A stretch of DNA of 31,645 nt from positions 1-31,645 of IMG/VR virus record IMGVR_UViG_3300024346_000313. One strand, given 5' to 3'. Origin of the DNA: a virus. A program made the position numbers and the translations under genes. The notes under the pieces are model-generated. The model ran no database searches and was not told the DNA's origin. It worked only from the letters and a program-made list of their open reading frames with translations. Positions within the stretch are counted from its first letter, which is position 1; each line of letters starts with the position of its first letter. This document shows, piece after piece, positions 6,654 through 20,656 of this stretch.

Positions 6654-7856
6654 TTATCCTATAAGTCGTTTAAATGTTTTACGTAAGGCATCTACTAATT
6701 CGTGCATCATTGCATCTGTGTGCAATGGTGTTGGTGCTATTCGTAATCTTTCTTGTCCTACAGCAACAGTAGGATAGTTGATTGGTTGTATAAAAATGTT
6801 GTAATCATTTAACAACATGTCGCTCATCTCTTTGCATAACTTTGCGTCCCTTACCATAACGGGAATAATGTGTGTACACGCAACATCAAGTACTTCTATG
6901 TTTACTTCTTTTAACATATCTTTTAACTTAGCAGTCTTAGATTGTTGTTGCTCACGTAACTCATTGTGGTCTTTTAAATACTTTATAGAGGACAAGGCAC
7001 CAGCACAAAGGACCGGGCTGGTACTAGTGGTGAATATAAATCCACTGGCTACACTGCGGATTGCGTCTATGACCATTCCGTCGCCGGCAACATAACCACC
7101 TTGTACTCCAAAAGCCTTACCCAACGTTCCGTTGATTAGATCAACTCGATCTTCCCCTATCTTTTCACAGTATCCTGCACCAGTTTCTCCATACAAGCCA
7201 ACAGCATGCACTTCATCTATATAGGTCATCGCATCATATTGTTCGGCAAGGTCACAGACACTAGAAATAGGAGAGACATCGCCATCCATGCTATACACAG
7301 ACTCGAAAACTATACATGGTATAAATCCCGCGGCGGCAACTTCTTCTAACTTCTTTTCTAAATCGCTCATATTATTATGTTGCCAAATACGTTTCTCGGC
7401 TCTACTGTTTCGAACCCCTTGGATTAACGAAGCATGATTTTTGCTGTCACTTAAGAAACATATATTTGGAATAATTTTGCTTAAGGCAATGAGTGTCCAT
7501 TCATTAGCGACATATGCACTAGTAAACAGTAATGAACTATCTTTATGATGTAGTTTAGACAGTTCGTTTTCTAGTGCAACATGATAGTGACTTGTGCCGC
7601 CAATGTTTCGCGTACCGCCAGAACCACTTCCTGTTTGGTCTAGTGCAGTATGCATTGAATCGATGACAACCTTGTGTTGTCCCATTCCTAAGTAATCGTT
7701 TGAACACCAGTTAACAATGGTTTTTATATTGTAAGGACCATACCAGATCGCTTCAGGAAACTGTCCGCGTTCACGAACGATATCATTAAAGACCCTATAA
7801 TTGCCTTCGGCTTTAAGAGTCTGTATCTTCTTTTCGAATGGTGCTAGATTTATCAT
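6654..7856 (-). CDS. hemA: 5-aminolevulinate synthase (Shemin pathway)
   Basis: 400 aa, full length. It condenses glycine with succinyl-CoA to 5-aminolevulinate, the first committed step of tetrapyrrole synthesis in Alphaproteobacteria. It is far closer to that enzyme than to related oxoamine synthases: it has [39 protein letters not shown] and [15 protein letters not shown]. The PLP lysine is K247 (K248 if the TTG at 7859 starts it, equal to Rhodobacter numbering), with the D and H of DEVH also present. The C-terminus keeps IQPINYPTV and ERLRIAPTP. There is no ribosome site; translation may be coupled to the overlapping upstream frame or start on a leaderless transcript. All key residues are intact, so it should be active. 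Confidence 0.95.
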
Positions 7857-8010
7857 CAACTGTATTTATGTACGCACTTAACATGTCTCTATGAACTTGA
7901 TGTGTATAAGAACCACCGCTCCAATATACCGTAAACATGCCCATATCTTTAAGTTCGTTCTGTGCCGCGTTGTAATCGTCTAGCATTCGTTTAAAAAATC
8001 TTTTTAACAT
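7813..8010 (-). CDS. Hypothetical protein, 65 aa, upstream of hemA
   Basis: Small basic-to-neutral protein beginning [20 protein letters not shown], overlapping the start of hemA by 44 nt in another frame. The composition is that of a normal protein and its position suggests it couples ribosomes to hemA, which lacks its own ribosome site. Its own site is weak. Function unknown. It could also be a leader frame. Confidence 0.5.
7863..7868 (-). promoter_or_regulatory. Late-type TAAATA box directly before hemA
   Basis: Minus-strand CATAAATAC ends 6 nt before the hemA ATG. If used as a late promoter the transcript would start at or next to the start codon, giving a leaderless message. It lies inside the coding sequence of the upstream 65-aa frame, so it may be chance. 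Confidence 0.3.
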
Positions 8011-9465: not shown

Positions 9466-9624
9466 TTTCTCTAATCCTAAACAAGGAATAAGAATAGATT
9501 GTTTACAGTTATCTGGATAAGCAATCGCTGATCCAAGGATAGGCAGACCAACCATACCAATAATGATAATCAAGAACGCCCAACCTAAACCTTTAGTTGT
9601 GCAATATTGTGTTTGTTCGCTCAT
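9463..9624 (-). CDS. Small membrane protein, 53 aa, paired with pseudoazurin
   Basis: The ATG overlaps the pseudoazurin stop as ATGA, so it is translationally coupled. One hydrophobic segment (about 15-35) with a polar N-terminus (MSEQTQYCTTKG) and a C-terminal tail with two Cys (about residues 40 and 48) that may lie in the periplasm and form a disulfide. A partner or anchor for the copper protein is an inference from position only. Confidence 0.65.
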   Translation of the reverse strand: MSEQTQYCTTKGLGWAFLIIIIGMVGLPILGSAIAYPDNCKQSILIPCLGLEK

Positions 9625-10052
9625 AGATCAGCCAACAATGCTTTTAGTTTTTTCTTTGACTTGCCTTTTACTTTAGCGTCTTTGATAGCGTCAACACCTT
9701 CTTGTGTCAAATCACCTACAACAACAATAGCAATCATGCCCATGCTCTTATGTGGTGAACATTGATACAAGTAAACGCCCGGCGTGTCAAATGTATATGT
9801 ATATTCTTTTGATAGTTTTGATTTCTTTGGTGCTTTCCAACCATCTGGTCCTGCAATGAATTCTACATTGTGACCTTTCTGTGTTGGCAACCATGTGATC
9901 GAATCTCCAACTTCAATAGTTGAGATGTCTTCACTGTATACCATTTTAGCGCCATCGTCACGCTTGTTCAACATGTCAACGGAAATATCTGCGGCTAGTG
10001 CCGGAGTTGATAGTAGACCCATGAGGGCTACTGTAGATAGTAAATTCTTCAT
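9621..10052 (-). CDS. Pseudoazurin-like type I copper protein
   Basis: 143 aa from the ATG at 10052, where GGAAAC gives a ribosome site; a longer frame to 10109 is not needed. Residues 1-20 are a signal peptide ending ALA. The mature part follows pseudoazurin: a VDMLNKRDDGAKMVYS start, EVGDSITWLP, KGHNVEF and CSPHKSMGM. The four copper ligands are H61, C98, H101 and M106, with the same spacing as H40, C78, H81 and M86 of mature pseudoazurin. The lysine-rich tail of about 25 residues extends past the copper domain. In bacteria it carries electrons in the periplasm to nitrite or other reductases. Has its own sigma70-type promoter. Confidence 0.9.
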   Translation of the reverse strand: MKNLLSTVALMGLLSTPALAADISVDMLNKRDDGAKMVYSEDISTIEVGDSITWLPTQKGHNVEFIAGPDGWKAPKKSKLSKEYTYTFDTPGVYLYQCSPHKSMGMIAIVVVGDLTQEGVDAIKDAKVKGKSKKKLKALLADL

Positions 10053-12430: not shown

Positions 12431-13183
12431 TTGAAAATAGGAATAGCAGGCTATGGGTTTGTAGGCAAGGCACATGAACTTATTCTAAAAGACTACCACG
12501 ATCTTATTATATATGACCCTGCACTAGGACACTACGGTGACCTAAGACATGCAGATGCAACTATTATTTGCGTAAGCACACCAGAAGGATCACATGGCGG
12601 ATGTCATATGGACAATGTATACTGCATTGTTGAAGACAATCCTAATGTACCTATATTAATTAAAAGCACAATTTCAGTAGAAGGTTGGAAAATGTTACAG
12701 CATGTGTATCCGCATACTGATATTGCATTTAGTCCTGAGTTCCTACGTGCGGCGCATTGGGAAACAGATGCACAACTGCAAGATAAAATTTATGTAGGAG
12801 GTAAGAACACAGGCTTTTGGGCAGATATTTTTATTACAGCATTGGGTAAGATTGATGTAGAGATTGCAAAACCAGAAGAATTAATTACAGCAAAGGCAGT
12901 AAGAAATAGTTTCTTAGCACTAAAAGTTAGTTTCTTTAATCAAGTATATGATTATTGCAAAGCACAGAATATAGACTACGACTCAGTTGCAGACGTTGTT
13001 GGAGACGACAGCAGGATAACAAGGAGTCACACACAAATTACAGAAGAACGAGGTTTTGGAGGACATTGTTTCCCTAAAGACGCAAAGGCATTTACTACAA
13101 GTGCAAAACAACAGGGCGTTGAATTGAGTATACTTGACGCCGCCATACAATATAACAACGACATAAGAAAGGGAACCACTTGA
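12431..13183 (+). CDS. Short UDP-glucose/GDP-mannose dehydrogenase-like protein
   Basis: Start placed at a TTG at 12431 ([19 protein letters not shown]) with GGAG 7 nt upstream; a TTG at 12410 would add seven residues without benefit. 250 aa: an NAD-binding Rossmann domain with [15 protein letters not shown], and FSPEFLRAA, then the central helical domain with the catalytic Cys in FGGHCFPKD (C213, K216). The C-terminal UDP-binding domain of full-size enzymes (about 390-440 aa) is missing. It may oxidise a nucleotide sugar in a reduced form, or bind a different sugar. It overlaps the prs reading frame end to start. Confidence 0.8.
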
Positions 13184-13185
13184 AA

Positions 13186-14118
13186 ATGAAAATCATCACG
13201 GGAAACGCTAACCCGAAATTAGCACAACAGATCGCAGAGCATTGTTTTGCTGATCTTGTTCCAGCAACAGTTTCTACATTTGCGGACGGTGAGACTAGTG
13301 TAGAGTTTAATGAGAACATTCGTGGAGAAGATGTTTTTATTGTTCAAAGCACAGCAATGCCAGTTAATGATAGTTTAATGGAACTGTTGATAATGATTGA
13401 TGCCGCAAGACGTTCAAGTGCAAGTAGAATTACAGCAGTTATTCCTTACTTTGGTTATGCTAGACAAGATCGTAAGAGTGCTTCACGTACACCTATCACA
13501 GCAAAACTAGTTGCTAACTTATTAGTTACAGCAGGTGCAGATAGAATCCTTACAATGGATTTACACGCAGGACAAATACAGGGCTTCTTTGATATTCCAG
13601 TAGACGACTTAACAAGCCGTGTTGTATTTGCTAAAGACATTGGACGTAACGTCAACACAACAGAAGGTGCAGTGTTTGTATCACCAGATGCAGGCGGAGT
13701 TGTTCGTGCTAGAAAATTTGCAGACATGTTCCATGCAGACATTGCTATAGTAGATAAGATGCGTCCGTCAGCAGGTAAAAGCGAAGTCATGAACTTGATC
13801 GGCGATGTTAAAGGTAAACACGCCATTCTGGTTGATGATATTGTTGACTCAGGTGGCACACTATGTAATGCGGCTAAAGCAATTATGGATGCAGGTGCGT
13901 TGAGTGTTAGAGCATACATCACACACGGAGTACTATCAGGCGAGGCATGTCAAAAGGTTGAGAAGTCAGTGCTAGACGAATTAGTAGTTACAGATACTAT
14001 TGCAGATCGTTGTCCTAAGAATTGTAAAAAGACACGACAGGTTAGTGTTGCGCCTTTGTTTGGTGAGGCAATGAGACGAGTTACTAACGAGGAATCAGTC
14101 AGCAGTTTATTTGTGTAA
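13186..14118 (+). CDS. prs: Ribose-phosphate diphosphokinase (PRPP synthetase)
   Basis: 310 aa from the ATG at 13186; a TTG at 13180 overlaps the upstream stop and has better ribosome-site spacing (GGGA 5 nt before), so it may be the true start. It makes PRPP from ribose 5-phosphate and ATP for nucleotide and NAD synthesis. Motifs: [10 protein letters not shown] near the N-terminus, ATP-site [11 protein letters not shown], metal-site [17 protein letters not shown] and PRPP-loop [12 protein letters not shown]. Full-length class I type. prs genes occur in other large marine phages, sometimes with NAD salvage genes, none of which is in this window. Confidence 0.95.
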
Positions 14119-14183: not shown

Positions 14184-14447
14184 ATGTGTTCACCTGAAGA
14201 CCGTAAAGAAGCCAATAGACTATTTTGGATAGTCAAAGGCCACCTAATTCCTGAACAAGAACCAGACTATATTGTAGAAGGGTATCTTCAAAGTTATTTC
14301 AAACGTTTATGGAATAATGAATCAGGATGTATGGAATTGTATGAAGAAGGATTTGAACGAGCATATAACGAACGCCTAGACAGACAAAATCAAGAATACT
14401 TATTAGATATTAATAATGTTGCTGTCTTAGGCGGTCATTACGATTAG
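14184..14447 (+). CDS. Hypothetical protein, 87 aa
   Basis: Start at the ATG at 14184 (MCSPEDRKEANRLFWIVKGH), which has GGAG 6 nt upstream; the ATG at 14163 has none. Acidic, helical and aromatic-rich protein. Its stop overlaps the stop of the convergent lipase gene by a few nt. No family recognised. Confidence 0.65.
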   Translation: MCSPEDRKEANRLFWIVKGHLIPEQEPDYIVEGYLQSYFKRLWNNESGCMELYEEGFERAYNERLDRQNQEYLLDINNVAVLGGHYD

Positions 14448-15202
14448 TCTAGGTTAGATATATGTTTGATGTACTCAGTCATTGAGTGATCACCAAAACT
14501 ATCAACCTTACCTTGCTTCAGTCCCATCCATATACCGCGCCACTTGTCTTTCCACAACTGCCAACCTGTAGGCTTTCTGTATTTGCCGTACGCATTTAAG
14601 TAATGCTGTTCGCCGTGATGTACGTACCCCATAATAGCAAGAGGAACAGTAGTAACAATGTCATTGTTGTTCTTCCATCTGTGATGAATAACATCTAGAC
14701 TATTACAATACCCCTTCCAGCCTACACGAGGTGAACCGAATGTATATAGTTCGACTGGATCGTTTAGTTCTACGTTATGTTTACAACGACTTGCCATAAT
14801 AGTAGCCATTGCCGCACCTAACGAGTGACCACAAAACCAAAGCGTCTTGCCTAAGTTTACTTTACGATTGATATCTTCTTCAATCATTGGCCATAGTTCG
14901 TCTACTTCTGCTTTGAACCCCCGGTGTACTCGACTTATTGTTTCTGCCATTACTGGCAACGCCTTTAAGTCTGCTGAGATATCATTAAATTCTGTAGGCT
15001 CTGTTCCTCTACATGCAATTACAATATCAGTTTTGTTCATGAAGCGATATGCTTGTGCTCCATTCTGTTCGTAAAATTCAACTGTAGTAAACCCTAGTTT
15101 CTTGACTTGACTCTTAGCACTTTTCATGTTACAATAAGCAATAGAGGCAAGTTTAGCAAAAAGTAAGGATCTTTCGTTGAAGTTCATATCATTTAATGTC
15201 AT
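14444..15202 (-). CDS. Class 3 lipase-like alpha/beta hydrolase
   Basis: 252 aa. The nucleophile elbow is GHSLGAA (about 130-136), with FGSPRVGWKGYC after it. DHSMTEY near the C-terminus would supply the catalytic His; the acid is probably the D of NNNDIVTTVP. CRGTEPTEFNDISADL matches the oxyanion strand of lipase_3 proteins. No signal peptide, so it acts in the host cytoplasm or from the virion: phospholipid release or help in lysis is possible. It is the only leftward gene between 14184 and the end of the window, with its own late promoter. Confidence 0.85.
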   Translation of the reverse strand: MTLNDMNFNERSLLFAKLASIAYCNMKSAKSQVKKLGFTTVEFYEQNGAQAYRFMNKTDIVIACRGTEPTEFNDISADLKALPVMAETISRVHRGFKAEVDELWPMIEEDINRKVNLGKTLWFCGHSLGAAMATIMASRCKHNVELNDPVELYTFGSPRVGWKGYCNSLDVIHHRWKNNNDIVTTVPLAIMGYVHHGEQHYLNAYGKYRKPTGWQLWKDKWRGIWMGLKQGKVDSFGDHSMTEYIKHISNLD

Positions 15203-15268: not shown

Positions 15269-15526
15269 ATGAAAAAACGTACAAGAAGCATATTGCAAGA
15301 GTTGAACACAGTAGGACGGTCACGTAATAATGATCATCTAATTGAAGCAACTGGCAACAATATTATTGAGAGCGCAATTAATCTATTAAATAGAATTGCA
15401 GAAACGTATGATGATGAAACTGCTAATGAATTAGAACGTAGGTTTTTGAATTCAATTAGAACAGGTGATGCTCGAAAATTTAAACGGACCATGCATAAAA
15501 TTATGGAATCAAAAAATGAAGATTAA
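15269..15526 (+). CDS. Putative head-associated protein, 85 aa
   Basis: N-terminus MKKRTRSILQEL has an [L/I]-x-E pattern (LQE at 9-11) that fits prohead-protease cleavage. The rest is helical, with ESAINLLNRIAETYDDETAN and a basic C-terminal half. I recall this type as a conserved small protein in marine T4-like phages. It overlaps the nucleotidyltransferase gene by 11 nt and leads the late block. Confidence 0.6.
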   Translation: MKKRTRSILQELNTVGRSRNNDHLIEATGNNIIESAINLLNRIAETYDDETANELERRFLNSIRTGDARKFKRTMHKIMESKNED

Positions 15527-16676
15527 AGATCTGCTAAATGAAGCACCAAAAAAAATTAAGCGTAGTGACGATGACAGTTGGTTAAAGAAAGCCGACGATG
15601 CAGTACGTGGCAGTTTTCCTATGAAAGCAATACAAACTATGCAAGGCGCTATTGGTAGACCAGGACCTGATGAAAAAGATTTAAACAAAGACAAAACGAA
15701 AACTAAAGTTATCAAAAAGAAAAAGTCGACATACCGGAAGCCAGTCCAAAGCAGAAATGATAAAATTGATCCTAACAACATTCCAACAACAGCAGGCTTT
15801 GTGGACAAGCGAAATGATGTTGGGTATGAGTACGAACGAGATAGAGACCTTTGGATCCCAAAGAAGAATAACGAGCAACCGCTAACAGGTCGCGAAGGTG
15901 CAATACGTTACAATAAAGCAGACAGCGCCAAACGTTATTATGTAAAAGAAACTATTATTAAAGAAGGCGGTAACATTTTCCAAGGTACAGCAGACTTTGA
16001 TCAAAAACTTATTCCAGACATGATGAAACAAATTAATAGTGTAATGTCCAAGACAGGCGTTAAGGCATTACCAATTGGATCAGGTGCATCACCACAAGCA
16101 GGCAAGATGAGCGGTGACTTGGATATGATTGCAGATGCAGGACAACTTATTAAAAAGTTTAATGCCCCAGATGTTAAGACTGCAAAAGTAGAACTAGAAA
16201 AGATGTTCCAACAAGCAGGCTTTGAAACTAAGAAGACAGGACAGATTGTCCATGTAAAAACTACAGTAGGTGATGTTCCACAGCAAGTAGACATTATGGT
16301 TGTTGACAATGGCGAGACTGCAAGCAAGTTTCACGTACATGACATACCAGGTGGTTCACCTTACAAAGGTGTGCATAAACAAATTATGATTGCTGACTTA
16401 GCAAAGCAAGCCGGGTTCAAGTGGAGCCCTTACAAAGGATTAGTAAGTAGAGAAACTAACGAACTTGTAAGCAACGACTTAGATAACATTGCAAAGCAGT
16501 TGATAGGTCCTAATGCAACAGCAAGAGATTTAGGATCAGTAGAAAGTATTCTAGCAAAAATGCCAAGTGCAAAAGAAATTGTTGATCGCCAAGAAGCAGA
16601 TCCAAATAGTGCTTGGAATAAAAAGAAAATACAAACACAAGAAAATGAGATAGTAAATGCGTTACGCAGAATTTAA
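15516..16676 (+). CDS. Pol-beta/PolX-like nucleotidyltransferase with capsid-targeting N-terminus
   Basis: 386 aa from the ATG at 15516 (MKIKDLLNEA), overlapping the gene before it; the longer frame from 15465 is not used. The first nine residues end in LNE and match a gp21-type propeptide. Residues 20-170 are basic and look disordered. The catalytic core has PIGSGASPQ (GS near 188), SGDLDMIAD (D201, D203) and QVDIMVVD (D259), the three acids of the polymerase-beta nucleotidyltransferase fold. A later GSPYKGVHKQIMIADLAKQ and WSPYKGLV segment recalls the PolX thumb. Likely DNA-end filling or nucleotide transfer in the head or just after injection. Confidence 0.75.
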   Translation: MKIKDLLNEAPKKIKRSDDDSWLKKADDAVRGSFPMKAIQTMQGAIGRPGPDEKDLNKDKTKTKVIKKKKSTYRKPVQSRNDKIDPNNIPTTAGFVDKRNDVGYEYERDRDLWIPKKNNEQPLTGREGAIRYNKADSAKRYYVKETIIKEGGNIFQGTADFDQKLIPDMMKQINSVMSKTGVKALPIGSGASPQAGKMSGDLDMIADAGQLIKKFNAPDVKTAKVELEKMFQQAGFETKKTGQIVHVKTTVGDVPQQVDIMVVDNGETASKFHVHDIPGGSPYKGVHKQIMIADLAKQAGFKWSPYKGLVSRETNELVSNDLDNIAKQLIGPNATARDLGSVESILAKMPSAKEIVDRQEADPNSAWNKKKIQTQENEIVNALRRI

Positions 16677-17784
16677 AATATTAAAAGAAGCCGAAGCACG
16701 TATTCAACATGCAGAAGATGTTATCTTCTGGGAAGGTAGTGCTGGCGCAATGAGAGTGTTGCAATCACTACGCAATATGGCAAAGGATGATCACAAGAAC
16801 GTTACACTTAAATGGGACGGATCTCCTGCACTTATATTTGGGCGTGATGAGCAAGGCGAGTTTGTGTTTACAGACAAGTCAGGCTTTGGCAAGAAGGGCG
16901 GAGTAGGACGTACTAAAAGCCCAGATGCAATTAGAGATGAGTTACTTGGACGCTCCGGTGGCGTCAACAGAGATAACCCAGATAGAATAGCATTTGCTGA
17001 TAAGATGGCAACTATTTTTAGCCTGTACGAAAAGGCTGTACCAAAAGACTATAGAGGTTACTTTAAAGGCGACTTGTTGTATTACACAACACCAGAAGTA
17101 AAAGAACAAAACTACGTGTTCACACCAAACATTGTTACATATGCAATTGATGTTAACAGCAAGATTGGTAAGCGTATTGGTCAAAGCACATCAGGTATTG
17201 TTATACACAGAGAAGTTGACTCCGAAGGTAACGAAGGACCATTTAGGAGTATAGATATATTCCAAGGCAATGCAGTATTAGTAGTGCCTAGTGTAACTAC
17301 AGAAGCACCTGTAGAAGTAGATACTTCTATACTTGATAACGCAGAAAAAGTAGTAAAACAAAACGCACAAGGCTTTGATGCTATGCTTGATGAGCCTAGT
17401 TTACGAGCAAAACAATTAACAGATTTACCTAAAATATTCTATACATACATCAACAGTAAAGTTGATACGGGATTAGATAACTTAGGCAGTGACTTTAGTA
17501 AGTGGTTACAAACTTCTAAACTTAGCGAAAAGAAAAAAGTTAATGTACTTGCATACATTAAAGAACACATGAATCATTATAAAGCGATGTGGAATGTTGT
17601 TGCTTCTGTTATGCAAGCCAAGGATGATATTATTGCCAAGTTTGACAGTCAAGGCGGTGATGTTAAACAGTCAATTGGTGACACACCGGGCGGTGAAGGA
17701 TATGTACTTGCACATCCTAAAGGCGATATTAAATTAGTACCAAGAAAAACATTCTCTGCGGCAAACAGAGCAGTTACTAGATAA
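16657..17784 (+). CDS. DUF6267-type ligase-like nucleotidyltransferase
   Basis: 375 aa, overlapping the upstream gene by 20 nt. The order of motifs fits the covalent nucleotidyltransferase superfamily (ATP/NAD ligases, capping enzymes): motif I KWDGSPALIFG with the putative adenylated K52, motif III FKGDLLYY (136-143), motif IV EGYVL (347-351) and motif V DIKLVPRKTF (357-366). A long helical insert lies between III and IV. The N-terminus MRYAEFKILKEAE has LKE before Ala, again a gp21-type site. It resembles the DUF6267 proteins of cyanophages as I recall them. Adenylation of nucleic acid ends is inferred. Confidence 0.7.
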   Translation: MRYAEFKILKEAEARIQHAEDVIFWEGSAGAMRVLQSLRNMAKDDHKNVTLKWDGSPALIFGRDEQGEFVFTDKSGFGKKGGVGRTKSPDAIRDELLGRSGGVNRDNPDRIAFADKMATIFSLYEKAVPKDYRGYFKGDLLYYTTPEVKEQNYVFTPNIVTYAIDVNSKIGKRIGQSTSGIVIHREVDSEGNEGPFRSIDIFQGNAVLVVPSVTTEAPVEVDTSILDNAEKVVKQNAQGFDAMLDEPSLRAKQLTDLPKIFYTYINSKVDTGLDNLGSDFSKWLQTSKLSEKKKVNVLAYIKEHMNHYKAMWNVVASVMQAKDDIIAKFDSQGGDVKQSIGDTPGGEGYVLAHPKGDIKLVPRKTFSAANRAVTR

Positions 17785-17794
17785 GGAAAACAAA

Positions 17795-18178
17795 ATGAAA
17801 ATTACAGATTTATTAAACGAAGGCCCATATGATACAGATCCAAAACTTATGCCATATGTAAGAATGGGTCAAAAGATTTCTTCAGCATTAGAACCATCAA
17901 GTGGAATCAAATGGGACGATGCAGAATTTAACAAAGCGGCCGCACTAGGTTCGTCATTTGGCAAACTAGGTTCATTGTTTGGTCCTAAGACTCCGGGCGA
18001 AGCATTAAAAGATGCAGGCGTTGATGTTGAACAAGCAAAAGCAATTATTTCAAAAGTAAAAAATGTTAAAGCCGGAGTTGGTGTTAAAGATGTTGATTCA
18101 GACAACGATGACGCAGAAGACAAAGCACCAAGCGACGATGATGTACATCGTCAAGCCAAAGACTTTGCAAGAGGCTAA
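17795..18178 (+). CDS. Acidic putative internal head protein, 127 aa
   Basis: Starts MKITDLLNEG, the clearest example of the propeptide pattern, with cleavage expected after LNE. AAGGAA ribosome site. The middle has FGKLGSLFGPKTPGEAL and the C-terminus is a low-complexity acidic stretch (DSDNDDAEDKAPSDDD). No enzyme motif. Probably carried in or processed in the prohead. Confidence 0.6.
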   Translation: MKITDLLNEGPYDTDPKLMPYVRMGQKISSALEPSSGIKWDDAEFNKAAALGSSFGKLGSLFGPKTPGEALKDAGVDVEQAKAIISKVKNVKAGVGVKDVDSDNDDAEDKAPSDDDVHRQAKDFARG

Positions 18179-18183
18179 TATTA

Positions 18184-19131
18184 ATGACTGAGAAGTTCAC
18201 AGCAACACAATGGGCAGAAATAGAAGGCGGTCACGAAATGACTCCGGCTAAAGAAGAACCATATTCCTTTTTAAAAGACATACATGAATCACGTATGACT
18301 CGCCAAGCCGGCACAGTCAAAAGTTTAACGTATACAGATTGTTGCGAACGTTTATATCTAAGTGTTTTAATACTTGAAATACTAAATCAATATGCATACT
18401 TTAGAAACACAGCAAGGGAATATGCAAAGCGAACTACAGGATATGATACTTTTAAATCGTATCGAATGAGTGGCACAGACTTGTATAATTTTGCTTACTT
18501 CGTTAATGGCGATGATGAGGCTATGCTAAAACTTAAAGATCCAACTTCTGCTAGAAATGCTAGAAATCGTACAACACTTCCTCTAGCACAATTAAATGGT
18601 TGGCTTAAAACAGTGCGTGGTAGTACAGCATATCCTCAGACATCACAATTCCTTATGAGACTTGAGAGTGCATTAAAGATTACTAACACTGAATATAGAA
18701 CAGTACGTAGAAATATTACACGCTACAAAGCATTAAACACTAAAGACAAACAAGACACAGTTACTAGACTATTAATTGCCGCAAGAGCAAAACTACGCAA
18801 TAGTGACTTAATAGATGATCTTAGTAAACTAGCCGCTACTAACGACTTAGAAACAGCAAGAGTAGCAGACAACGAACCGACAGTAAGTGTTCCGGATATT
18901 AGTACAGACGCAAGAGATATTAGTTTATATCGTTATCTTGTAGGTACTGAGAATGTAATGCGTACTAAAAACTTCTTAGATCTCGCAAAGCAAGGCAAAA
19001 GTATACCTGGTCAGTTTGTACAAGGGTACCAACCAGCCATTAAAATGATGGATGATATTGTACAAGCAGGGCCTGCATACGTTAATTTACTTAGAACTTT
19101 GCATCAGAGAGCAAAAAAGAGCCGTAAATAG
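18184..19131 (+). CDS. Hypothetical late protein, 315 aa
   Basis: Large soluble, basic, mostly helical protein with no recognised domain. The N-terminal 45 residues look like a flexible arm (TATQWAEIEGGHEMTPAKEE). It lacks the propeptide pattern of its neighbours. It lies 6 nt downstream of the 127-aa gene, in the late block. Possibly a virion or assembly protein; no more can be said from sequence. Confidence 0.65.
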   Translation: MTEKFTATQWAEIEGGHEMTPAKEEPYSFLKDIHESRMTRQAGTVKSLTYTDCCERLYLSVLILEILNQYAYFRNTAREYAKRTTGYDTFKSYRMSGTDLYNFAYFVNGDDEAMLKLKDPTSARNARNRTTLPLAQLNGWLKTVRGSTAYPQTSQFLMRLESALKITNTEYRTVRRNITRYKALNTKDKQDTVTRLLIAARAKLRNSDLIDDLSKLAATNDLETARVADNEPTVSVPDISTDARDISLYRYLVGTENVMRTKNFLDLAKQGKSIPGQFVQGYQPAIKMMDDIVQAGPAYVNLLRTLHQRAKKSRK

Positions 19132-19151
19132 GGGTTTTTTTGCCTCTATGG
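19129..19151 (+). terminator. Weak hairpin after 315-aa gene
   Basis: ATAGGGG can pair with CCTCTAT (7 bp, one G-U) around a T-rich loop. The T-run lies in the loop and not after the stem, so termination is doubtful. Confidence 0.3.
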
Positions 19152-19157
19152 TAAATA
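19152..19157 (+). promoter_or_regulatory. T4-type late promoter box
   Basis: GGTAAATAC about 57 nt upstream of the ATG at 19215, in an 83-nt intergenic region with no other signal. Confidence 0.55.
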
Positions 19158-19214
19158 CATATAACAACTTCGTAGAGAAACGAAATTGGTCATTAGAGAC
19201 TATAGGAGAATAAA

Positions 19215-19547
19215 ATGGCATCAGTAGCAAGAGTAAATCAAGACGGACGTGATCACGGCGTATCATATTCAACAGGACAAGTAACAGGCATCGAAATTGA
19301 TGCAGTTGTATCATTAGCGGCAAAAGACGGCATCGACGGAGCATTGGCTCAAATCGTTGCTGAGTTTTCACCGTTGCTTTACAAGTCAACAGGTACAGCA
19401 GGTAAGATCTTTGCAATCGTAGACGGACATCACCAGGATGCGGCGTCAATGACTGCACGTTTACAAAACATGGGAACAGTAGATGGCGTTGACTTGTCAG
19501 CATCAACAGTTGTTATCCGTGACTTGGACGCATTTAGCGCAACATAA
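19215..19547 (+). CDS. Putative virion structural protein, 110 aa
   Basis: Strong AGGAG ribosome site, own late box and own strong terminator, the layout of an abundant late product. The chain is small, acidic, alanine/valine-rich and predicted alpha/beta (SYSTGQVTGIEIDAVVSLAA; KIFAIVDGHHQDAASMTARL). No signal peptide or membrane segment. A capsid decoration or other virion protein is a fair guess; the family is not recognised. Confidence 0.6.
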   Translation: MASVARVNQDGRDHGVSYSTGQVTGIEIDAVVSLAAKDGIDGALAQIVAEFSPLLYKSTGTAGKIFAIVDGHHQDAASMTARLQNMGTVDGVDLSASTVVIRDLDAFSAT

Positions 19548-19600
19548 GAATTCCTTTACCTTAGGAACGTGATTAACGGCCGTAATGGCAGGCGTCACAC

Positions 19601-19632
19601 AAAGGGTTCAGTTTTTACTGGACCCTTTTTTT
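19601..19632 (+). terminator. Strong rho-independent terminator
   Basis: AAAGGGTTCAG (19601-19611) pairs with CTGGACCCTTT (19618-19628), 11 bp with one G-U, loop TTTTTA, followed by T-rich sequence to 19632. Confidence 0.9.
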
Positions 19633-19650
19633 ATGGCTATAAGTAATAGT

Positions 19651-20049
19651 ATGAAATTTAAATTAATTACTCTTGTAGATATTACACAGACAAATGCCCG
19701 TCGCGGCGAAGATAAAGTATCTTACGGACAGCAACAAAACTTTATGAGTGTGTCGCAGACACTTGGACTTAGAACAAACTTTGAAATATCTACCCCTATT
19801 CCATCAATGCAAACTGTAAAAGGTTGGGGGACAAAGTTTAAAACAGGCAAACACAAAGTATGGACTGCTACTGTTACCGTTGAACAAGAAGCCGCCCATA
19901 GTGTTGAACTAATGCAAGAGGACTTTAACCTAGTACCAATTATAAAAGGATTGCACGAATCAGTAAATATCGATGAGCCTGTGTTTTGGACATCAGATAC
20001 CGAAAACTGTAATATATTGTTTACCTTTCTAGACGAAAATGATAAATAG
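19651..20049 (+). CDS. Conserved phage protein, 132 aa
   Basis: Start set at the ATG at 19651 (MKFKLITLVDITQTNARRGE); earlier starts at 19585 and 19633 run through or abut the terminator. No clear ribosome site. The N-terminal LVDITQTNARRGEDK and the later LRTNFEIS pattern is one I recall from small conserved proteins of marine myophages. Beta-rich middle with TVTVEQEAAH. Function unknown. Confidence 0.6.
   Translation: MKFKLITLVDITQTNARRGEDKVSYGQQQNFMSVSQTLGLRTNFEISTPIPSMQTVKGWGTKFKTGKHKVWTATVTVEQEAAHSVELMQEDFNLVPIIKGLHESVNIDEPVFWTSDTENCNILFTFLDENDK
20043..20048 (+). promoter_or_regulatory. Late-type TAAATA box
   Basis: GATAAATAG overlapping the stop of the gene before it, about 80 nt upstream of the ATG at 20127. 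Confidence 0.4.
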
Positions 20050-20126
20050 TTTATAAGGCAAACATAAAACACATCACATTACACTAACAGGCACTAATAC
20101 GTACGAGTTGATTAATGGAGAACATA

Positions 20127-20357
20127 ATGGCAACTGCCTTAGAACGTAAAAATTTAGAAGCACACGTCGACCTTTGTGAGGCACGTTATAAAAATCTCGA
20201 AGGACGCCTAGACGGCATCGAAGTCAAAGTAAACAGCATTCACGATGACTTAATGTCAGGACAACAATCAATGACTAAAGTAATCATTGGAGCCGCTGGT
20301 ACAATAGTAGCAGGCTTATTATCTACAATCGTAGTTATATTACTAAACCTTTCCTAA
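20127..20357 (+). CDS. XhlA-like coiled-coil membrane protein, 76 aa
   Basis: Start at the ATG at 20127 (MATALERKNLEAHVDLCEAR), with GGAG 7 nt upstream. Residues 1-50 are a charged heptad-rich helix (LEGRLDGIEVKVNSIHDDLM) and residues 54-76 a single C-terminal membrane segment. This layout matches haemolysin XhlA-type and similar phage lysis accessory proteins, though the family is not proven. Could be part of the holin system. Confidence 0.55.
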   Translation: MATALERKNLEAHVDLCEARYKNLEGRLDGIEVKVNSIHDDLMSGQQSMTKVIIGAAGTIVAGLLSTIVVILLNLS

Positions 20358-20360
20358 ACA

Positions 20361-20366
20361 TAAATA
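20361..20366 (+). promoter_or_regulatory. Late-type TAAATA box directly before start
   Basis: CATAAATAC ends 4 nt before the ATG at 20371, which has no ribosome site. If active it would give a leaderless message. Confidence 0.35.
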
Positions 20367-20370
20367 CTGT

Positions 20371-20655
20371 ATGAACTTAAGAGAATTAACATCTGACATT
20401 CTGGTCGAGAAGCAGATTTGGGGCCGCAAAGGAAATAAGGCTGTACGTAAGTATAGATGTTCCGGTGGCACTAGGCACGGAAGAATTGTAAGTACCCCGG
20501 CTAACTGTTTTAAAGCAATCAATATTAAAGCCCGTGCTACAATGAAACGTACACAGGCACGTTTAGGTAAAAGAATTGCACGTAAGGCGAAGCGTACTAA
20601 GCGTATGAATCCAGCAAGTCGTAGAGTTGCTAGTATGAATAAGGCACGTAGATAG
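20371..20655 (+). CDS. Basic internal head protein, paralog 1, 94 aa
   Basis: N-terminus MNLRELTSDILVE fits a gp21-type propeptide (LVE). Then IWGRKGNKAVRKYRC, HGRIV, a second Cys, and a lysine/arginine-rich tail ending in KRMNPASRR. About one third of residues are K or R, as in proteins that bind DNA in the phage head. The next gene is a tandem paralog. Two Cys near 32 and 46 could form a small metal or disulfide site. Confidence 0.65.
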   Translation: MNLRELTSDILVEKQIWGRKGNKAVRKYRCSGGTRHGRIVSTPANCFKAINIKARATMKRTQARLGKRIARKAKRTKRMNPASRRVASMNKARR

Positions 20656-20656
20656 A

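Follow-up and report, generated by a model that had tools for sequence, protein, structure and literature searches.

Viruses are already known to pair polymerases of the pol-beta superfamily with ligases. In phages, RlaP (PF10127), a pol-beta nucleotidyltransferase (NTase), occurs with an RNA ligase, and the two are proposed to act in RNA repair (PMC7824862). PgVPolX of Phaeocystis globosa virus joins a polymerase X to a ligase, so that filling is followed by sealing (PMC5537341), and ASFV PolX fills gaps despite lacking the thumb and 8-kDa domains (PMC5330486). A different precedent comes from the internal proteins of phage T4, which enter the prohead by means of a ten-residue N-terminal sequence, are cut by gp21 after L/I-x-E and are delivered together with the DNA (PMC9026906).

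The locus described here lies in a 31,645-base viral contig from a marine virus of bacteria, the whole of which is referred to as the window, and it shares features with each of these systems. Two overlapping genes, P1 and P2, are present as the initial annotation had it (Table 1), with an overlap of 20 bases and in different frames. Like RlaP and its partner, they bring together, in large phages, a pol-beta-fold NTase and a ligase of the covalent-nucleotidyltransferase type, but the homologues of P1 do not match RlaP, and virion targeting of RlaP goes unmentioned in the available portion of that source (PMC7824862). PgVPolX is closest in layout to the five ORFs in which P1 and P2 are fused, although it shows lyase activity and its ligase domain is NAD-dependent, whereas the phage version has DUF6267 and head-protease sites (PMC5537341). 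ASFV PolX shares with P1 a minimal architecture without the 8-kDa and thumb (DNA-binding) domains and works with a virus-encoded ligase (PMC5330486); ASFV is, however, a eukaryotic virus, and its DNA ligase has a distinct N-terminal domain and not DUF6267 (PMC6344480). The T4 internal proteins share with P1 and P2 the N-terminal targeting peptide of ~10 residues and the gp21-type cutting site, but are neither polymerases nor ligases (PMC9026906). We conclude that the P1/P2 pair is real, conserved and probably packaged, and that comparable polymerase-ligase pairs are already known. The assertion in the initial annotation that no phage system of this kind had been described was therefore too strong, since phage RlaP with RNA ligase is on record (PMC7824862) and giant viruses have PolX with a ligase.

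Table 1. Coordinates in the window of P1, P2, their predicted features and their neighbours (arrows mark predicted cuts).
Feature	Position	Strand	Details
Small 85-aa protein 5' of P1	15269..15526	+	virion structural family phrog_11854 (head and packaging), E 1.7e-13
P1, PolX-like nucleotidyltransferase gene	15516..16676	+	386 aa
P1 residues 1-9, MKIKDLLNE↓A, capsid-targeting-like, L-x-E site	15516..15542	+	relatives: MKI[TN][DE]LLNEA/G
P1 small beta-rich extra domain, residues about 86-143	15771..15944	+	pLDDT 83-89; lacking in short homologues
P1 second predicted prohead-protease site, I-K-E↓G, residues 148-151	15957..15968	+	
P1 palm and N-subdomain (nascent base-pair-binding part), residues 151-370	15966..16625	+	structural alignment with pol beta
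P2, DUF6267 ligase-like covalent nucleotidyltransferase gene	16657..17784	+	375 aa
P2 residues 1-12, MRYAEFKILKE↓A, capsid-targeting-like, L-x-E site	16657..16692	+	
P2 motif I, K52-W-D-G, predicted adenylated lysine	16810..16821	+	invariant, 45 homologues
P2 helical insert of ~110 residues (about 223-331) between motifs IIIa and IV	17323..17649	+	model secondary structure
P2 motifs IV (E347-G-Y-V) and V (K359-L-V)	17695..17739	+	invariant, 45 homologues
Cassette 3' of P2	17795..23670	+	genes 17795, 20371, 20657, 20980 and 22900 share the P1/P2 N-terminal targeting pattern

P1 matched no Pfam family, and a sequence search of solved structures with the P1 and P2 alignments returned no relevant relative, the fimbrial, BAR-domain and kinase rows being taken as spurious. 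For the domain at residues 151-370, the AlphaFold2 model has pLDDT mostly above 90; its best Foldseek matches were DNA polymerase lambda (E 2.3e-6), and VIA-align superimposed it on pol lambda and pol beta with a Z of 11.8 over ~165 residues, so that structure prediction and fold comparison bear out the polymerase-beta fold proposed in the initial annotation. Residues 154-343 of the model correspond to pol beta 142-335, which comprises the palm and the N-subdomain. Both the 8-kDa lyase domain and the helix-hairpin-helix DNA-binding subdomain are absent from P1: the structural match begins at about residue 142 of pol beta, and it is right there that the short P1 homologues start. Across P1 and 50 diverse homologues (23-92% identity), S199-G200-D201-x-D203, Q257 and D259 are invariant, and the GS motif (G188-S189) is GS or GT in the 50 relatives while the Asp triad does not vary. 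The residues that the initial annotation had picked out (GS, D201, D203 and D259) are thus no chance resemblance, and P1 displays the hallmarks of family X, namely a GS motif, a D-x-D and a third Asp in a pol-beta palm. Together, alignment and model make it well supported, short of proof, that P1 is a minimal PolX-like nucleotidyltransferase. Its identification as RlaP was rejected: PF10127 is absent among the matches listed for the 50 relatives (the best 25 of 31 families, E <= 1) and has no match anywhere in the window (G000). The beta-rich domain that precedes the NTase also appears ahead of the ligase in the linker of one fused protein (L064:3696-6089, ORF residues 376-426; E 2.8e-9); it is mobile, and a head-protease-like site comes after it.

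P2 matches the Pfam family DUF6267 (PF19782, E 4.6e-36), as do all 45 of its relatives. This family of unknown function occurs in 163 records of sequenced phages, most of them marine cyanophages, and at least 539 stretches of virus contigs also contain it; no paper naming it was found in a literature search that had most subscription journals outside its reach. The P2 model is confident (mean pLDDT 89.5). Foldseek alone returned nothing from the PDB at E <= 0.001, and after structural re-alignment the top 50 rows were all RNA or DNA ligases. RNA ligases led, with that of Naegleria at the best Z, 7.1, a value which alone may reflect a common arrangement; DNA ligases came next at Z 5-6, and the individual scores included TbREL1 (5.9), LigIV (5.9), T4 Rnl1 (5.7) and AsfvLIG (5.1). 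Ligase motifs I (K52-W-D-G), Ia (R63), III (G138-D139), IV (E347-G-Y-V) and V (K359) are invariant in 45 homologues. The ligase assignment is convincing because the structural match and the conserved motifs agree, and the ligase-superfamily fold suggested for P2 is upheld in this way, with a weaker structural comparison than that of P1. The presence of motifs III-V, also suggested at the outset, stands, but motif IV is better assigned to the C-terminal E347-G-Y-V, with V at K359, than to the GIVIH strand at 180-184. P2 ends 16 residues past motif V and has no C-terminal OB domain with motif VI, and none of the 45 DUF6267 proteins matches the DNA-ligase (PF01068) or RNA_ligase (PF09414) models at E <= 1. 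From motifs and model, the view of P2 as a divergent ligase-type covalent nucleotidyltransferase is likewise well supported rather than proven. That P2 substitutes for a replicative DNA ligase was rejected as a general rule, as several phages bearing the pair encode a canonical ligase: an ATP-dependent one lies on the same contig in G018, G020 and G023, and among the jumbo phages PA5oct has a PF01068 ligase and Atu_ph07 and Phosso have NAD-dependent ones.

From four scans of IMG/VR we obtained 96 loci that are distinct at 95%, of which 93 were left when 3 truncated ones were set aside. At these marine-phage loci the two genes are adjacent (79) or fused in one ORF (5) in 84 of 93 cases; P1 stands alone in 7 and P2 in 2. 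Whole-contig searches located the DUF6267 gene elsewhere on the contig in one exception (L151/G006) and the NTase in another (L054/G013), and the remaining unpaired loci are mostly fragments. More distant NTases of the P1 type are found in L056, L070 and L116. These gene arrangements support a functional link between P1 and P2. In G013 (L217:2180-3400), a distant P1-type NTase lies away from DUF6267; its N-terminal domain is of another kind and ends in SITE↓G, and additional genes bearing the targeting pattern come after it.

The co-occurrence expected of such a pair is, however, not a property of the whole DUF6267 family, which is widespread in cyanophages without this polymerase. No P1 homologue was found in the complete cyanophage genomes bearing DUF6267, and the ligase-like protein can therefore work without PolX. 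The cyanophage partner is a HIGH-type cytidylyltransferase-like enzyme, encoded downstream of DUF6267 in P-HM1 and S-SM1 and fused to it in S-PM2. Like P2, cyanophage T4-GC71 belongs to DUF6267, and it shares a position downstream of gp41; its partner T4-GC190, the family of the S-SM1 enzyme, was detected in S-SM1 virions (PMC3037559). In contrast to P1, this partner is of the HIGH superfamily and not PolX-like, and no targeting sequence was evident in the cyanophage DUF6267 proteins examined. The S-SM1 enzyme paired with DUF6267 itself starts MKKFSAFLNE↓A. In L056 a PolX-like NTase, DUF6267 and a HIGH-type enzyme are encoded consecutively. HIGH-type partners are located at L198:5173-5739, L202:3983-5758, L204:19257-20420 and L056:3185-4171.

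Capsid targeting of both proteins, put forward in the initial annotation from their N-termini, is sustained by a wider comparison. A short N-terminal peptide ending in a T4-type L/I-x-E site is found in P1, in P2 and in nearly all of their relatives. Cleavage of P1 at E150 would leave a mature NTase beginning GGNIF, and the P3 residue of the site ahead of the NTase domain is L or I in 84 and V in 3 of 89 distinct homologues; in the short homologues this pre-NTase site, near their start, is the only one. On the side of the ligase, [LIV]-x-E occurs no more than 30 aa ahead of the domain in all 86 distinct homologues, and each of the five fused proteins has a protease-like site immediately ahead of it (IREG, LTEG, IREA, ISEA and IKEG). 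Of the 13 genes in 15516-23670 of the window, 7 bear the targeting pattern, P1 and P2 included, as against none of the 38 others, a contrast that is descriptive because the pattern was picked after seeing the sequence. These signals suggest that P1 and P2 are probably packaged in the virion.

Distant relatives in jumbo phages add to this picture. Remote P1-type NTases adjoin a ligase-like protein of the KxDG...EGxV type in Sinorhizobium phage Phosso and Agrobacterium phage Atu_ph07, and in PA5oct the two are three genes apart. The NTase starts M-GG in Phosso, Atu_ph07 and immuto and M-SG in PA5oct, exactly at the predicted cut point of P1, so the native end of the jumbo type coincides with the mature end predicted for the T4-like type, which supports packaging and processing. 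EST35_0231, the NTase of PA5oct, carries the annotation 'structural protein, ESI-MS/MS', and that of the PA5oct ligase-like protein has no mass-spectrometry mark. The jumbo-phage ligase-like partners match RNA_ligase PF09414 weakly (E 0.002 and 0.085). When the DUF6267 profile was compared with those of the jumbo-phage ligase-like proteins, only motifs IV-V aligned (with EGVV...FKVV of the Phosso protein by hhalign, E 0.0046, probability 7.6), and we do not claim a common family for the two because of this limited extent and low probability. Besides its P1/P2-like pair, Atu_ph07 encodes a separate RlaP, RNA ligases and an NAD-dependent DNA ligase. The Lak phages have the NTase, with no KxDG ligase within 4 kb. 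In Flavobacterium phage immuto, the P1-type NTase is directly followed on its 3' side by a 907-aa protein (L212:4914-7637) with weak pol-beta NTase, weak cytidylyltransferase-like and weak peptidase-like matches.

From the computed folds, catalytic residues, linkage and targeting signals we infer packaging, activity and an order of action. Both proteins would be drawn into the prohead by their targeting sequences and freed there by a protease of the gp21 type, which would probably cut P1 at E9 and E150 and P2 at E11; once they are injected with the phage DNA, P1 would add the nucleotide or nucleotides missing from a gap or end, after which P2 would seal the remaining nick ahead of phage gene expression. 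In general terms, as a virion-carried two-enzyme module for nucleic-acid repair by gap filling and then sealing, we consider that this proposal has an even chance of being correct. The likeness to bacterial end joining drawn in the initial annotation goes too far, since nothing Ku-like or end-bridging was identified. As for the substrate, DNA appears more likely than RNA: it is favoured by the PolX fold of P1 and by the gp41-type helicase gene lying upstream in P-HM1, S-PM2, S-SM1, Melnitz, Atu_ph07 and Phosso, whereas the absence of an OB domain from P2 and the bias of its structural matches towards RNA ligases speak for RNA. Given the other ligases or RlaP coexisting with the pair in Atu_ph07, G018, G020 and G023, the pair presumably supplies something that those enzymes do not, and early availability is one explanation for this added role. 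Our fuller but more tentative reading, plausible without being the expected outcome, is that a packaged PolX-like/ligase pair, released from protease-cut precursors, mends gaps, nicks or ends of the incoming DNA before expression begins, and that it is widespread in marine T4-like phages and also present in jumbo phages.

The same enzymes could instead act on RNA, with P1 restoring lost nucleotides and P2 religating the tRNA or rRNA that anticodon nucleases of the host cleave upon infection. The RNA-ligase character of the best structural matches of an OB-less P2, the weak PF09414 matches of the jumbo-phage partners and the precedent of phage RlaP with RNA ligase (PMC7824862) are consistent with such a role; we nevertheless hold it to be unlikely, as P1 matches DNA polymerases X, RlaP is not among the matches listed for its homologues, Atu_ph07 possesses RlaP and RNA ligases apart from this pair, and no tRNA gene is present in the window. 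Less probable still is a chemistry unrelated to nucleic-acid ends, for example nucleotide transfer to proteins or small molecules, in which the ligase-like fold merely needs some nucleotidyltransferase as a partner. The pairing or fusion of cyanophage DUF6267 with a HIGH-type enzyme instead of a polymerase (S-PM2, P-HM1 and S-SM1) and the row of all three genes in L056 point in that direction, but P1 retains the palm and N-subdomain of template-using polymerases and P2 the full set of ligase motifs. It is also conceivable, though very improbable in our judgement, that P1 and P2 are ordinary late or structural head proteins of enzyme descent that have lost catalysis: they do lie in a cassette of capsid-targeted genes, and the PA5oct homologue is recorded as a structural protein, yet the catalytic residues are all invariant in homologues down to 23-35% identity.

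Repair of incoming nucleic acid by packaged enzymes remains our preferred reading. With a ligase fold assigned to DUF6267 and a conserved PolX-like partner that has head-protease sites, a formerly anonymous gene pair now yields a testable hypothesis, namely that phages may inject repair enzymes along with their DNA. If so, an incoming genome could already be under repair before phage genes are expressed, in parallel with the PolX-ligase systems of giant viruses, and isolates with pair-like arrangements (Atu_ph07, Phosso and PA5oct) render the hypothesis directly testable.

PADLOC gave no meaningful match to defence systems, and the sole NCBIfam row was an incidental CodY far under its cut-off. 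Elsewhere in the window, just upstream of the cassette and on the opposite strand, 14444-15202 (-) encodes a class 3 lipase (PF01764, E 1.8e-20). A UDP-glucose/GDP-mannose dehydrogenase-like gene followed by a ribose-phosphate pyrophosphokinase (PF13793, E 4e-54) occupies 12434-14118, and 9621-10052 (-) encodes a copper protein of the plastocyanin/azurin type whose start resembles a signal peptide (PF00127, E 2.3e-15). The protein encoded at 24029-24364 has a NifU-like iron-sulphur scaffold domain (PF01106, E 2.1e-22). Finally, 6654-7859 (-) encodes a protein of the aminotransferase class I/II fold (PF00155, E 4.2e-62); judged by eye, it looks like 5-aminolevulinate synthase, whose gene would be an uncommon metabolic one in a phage.
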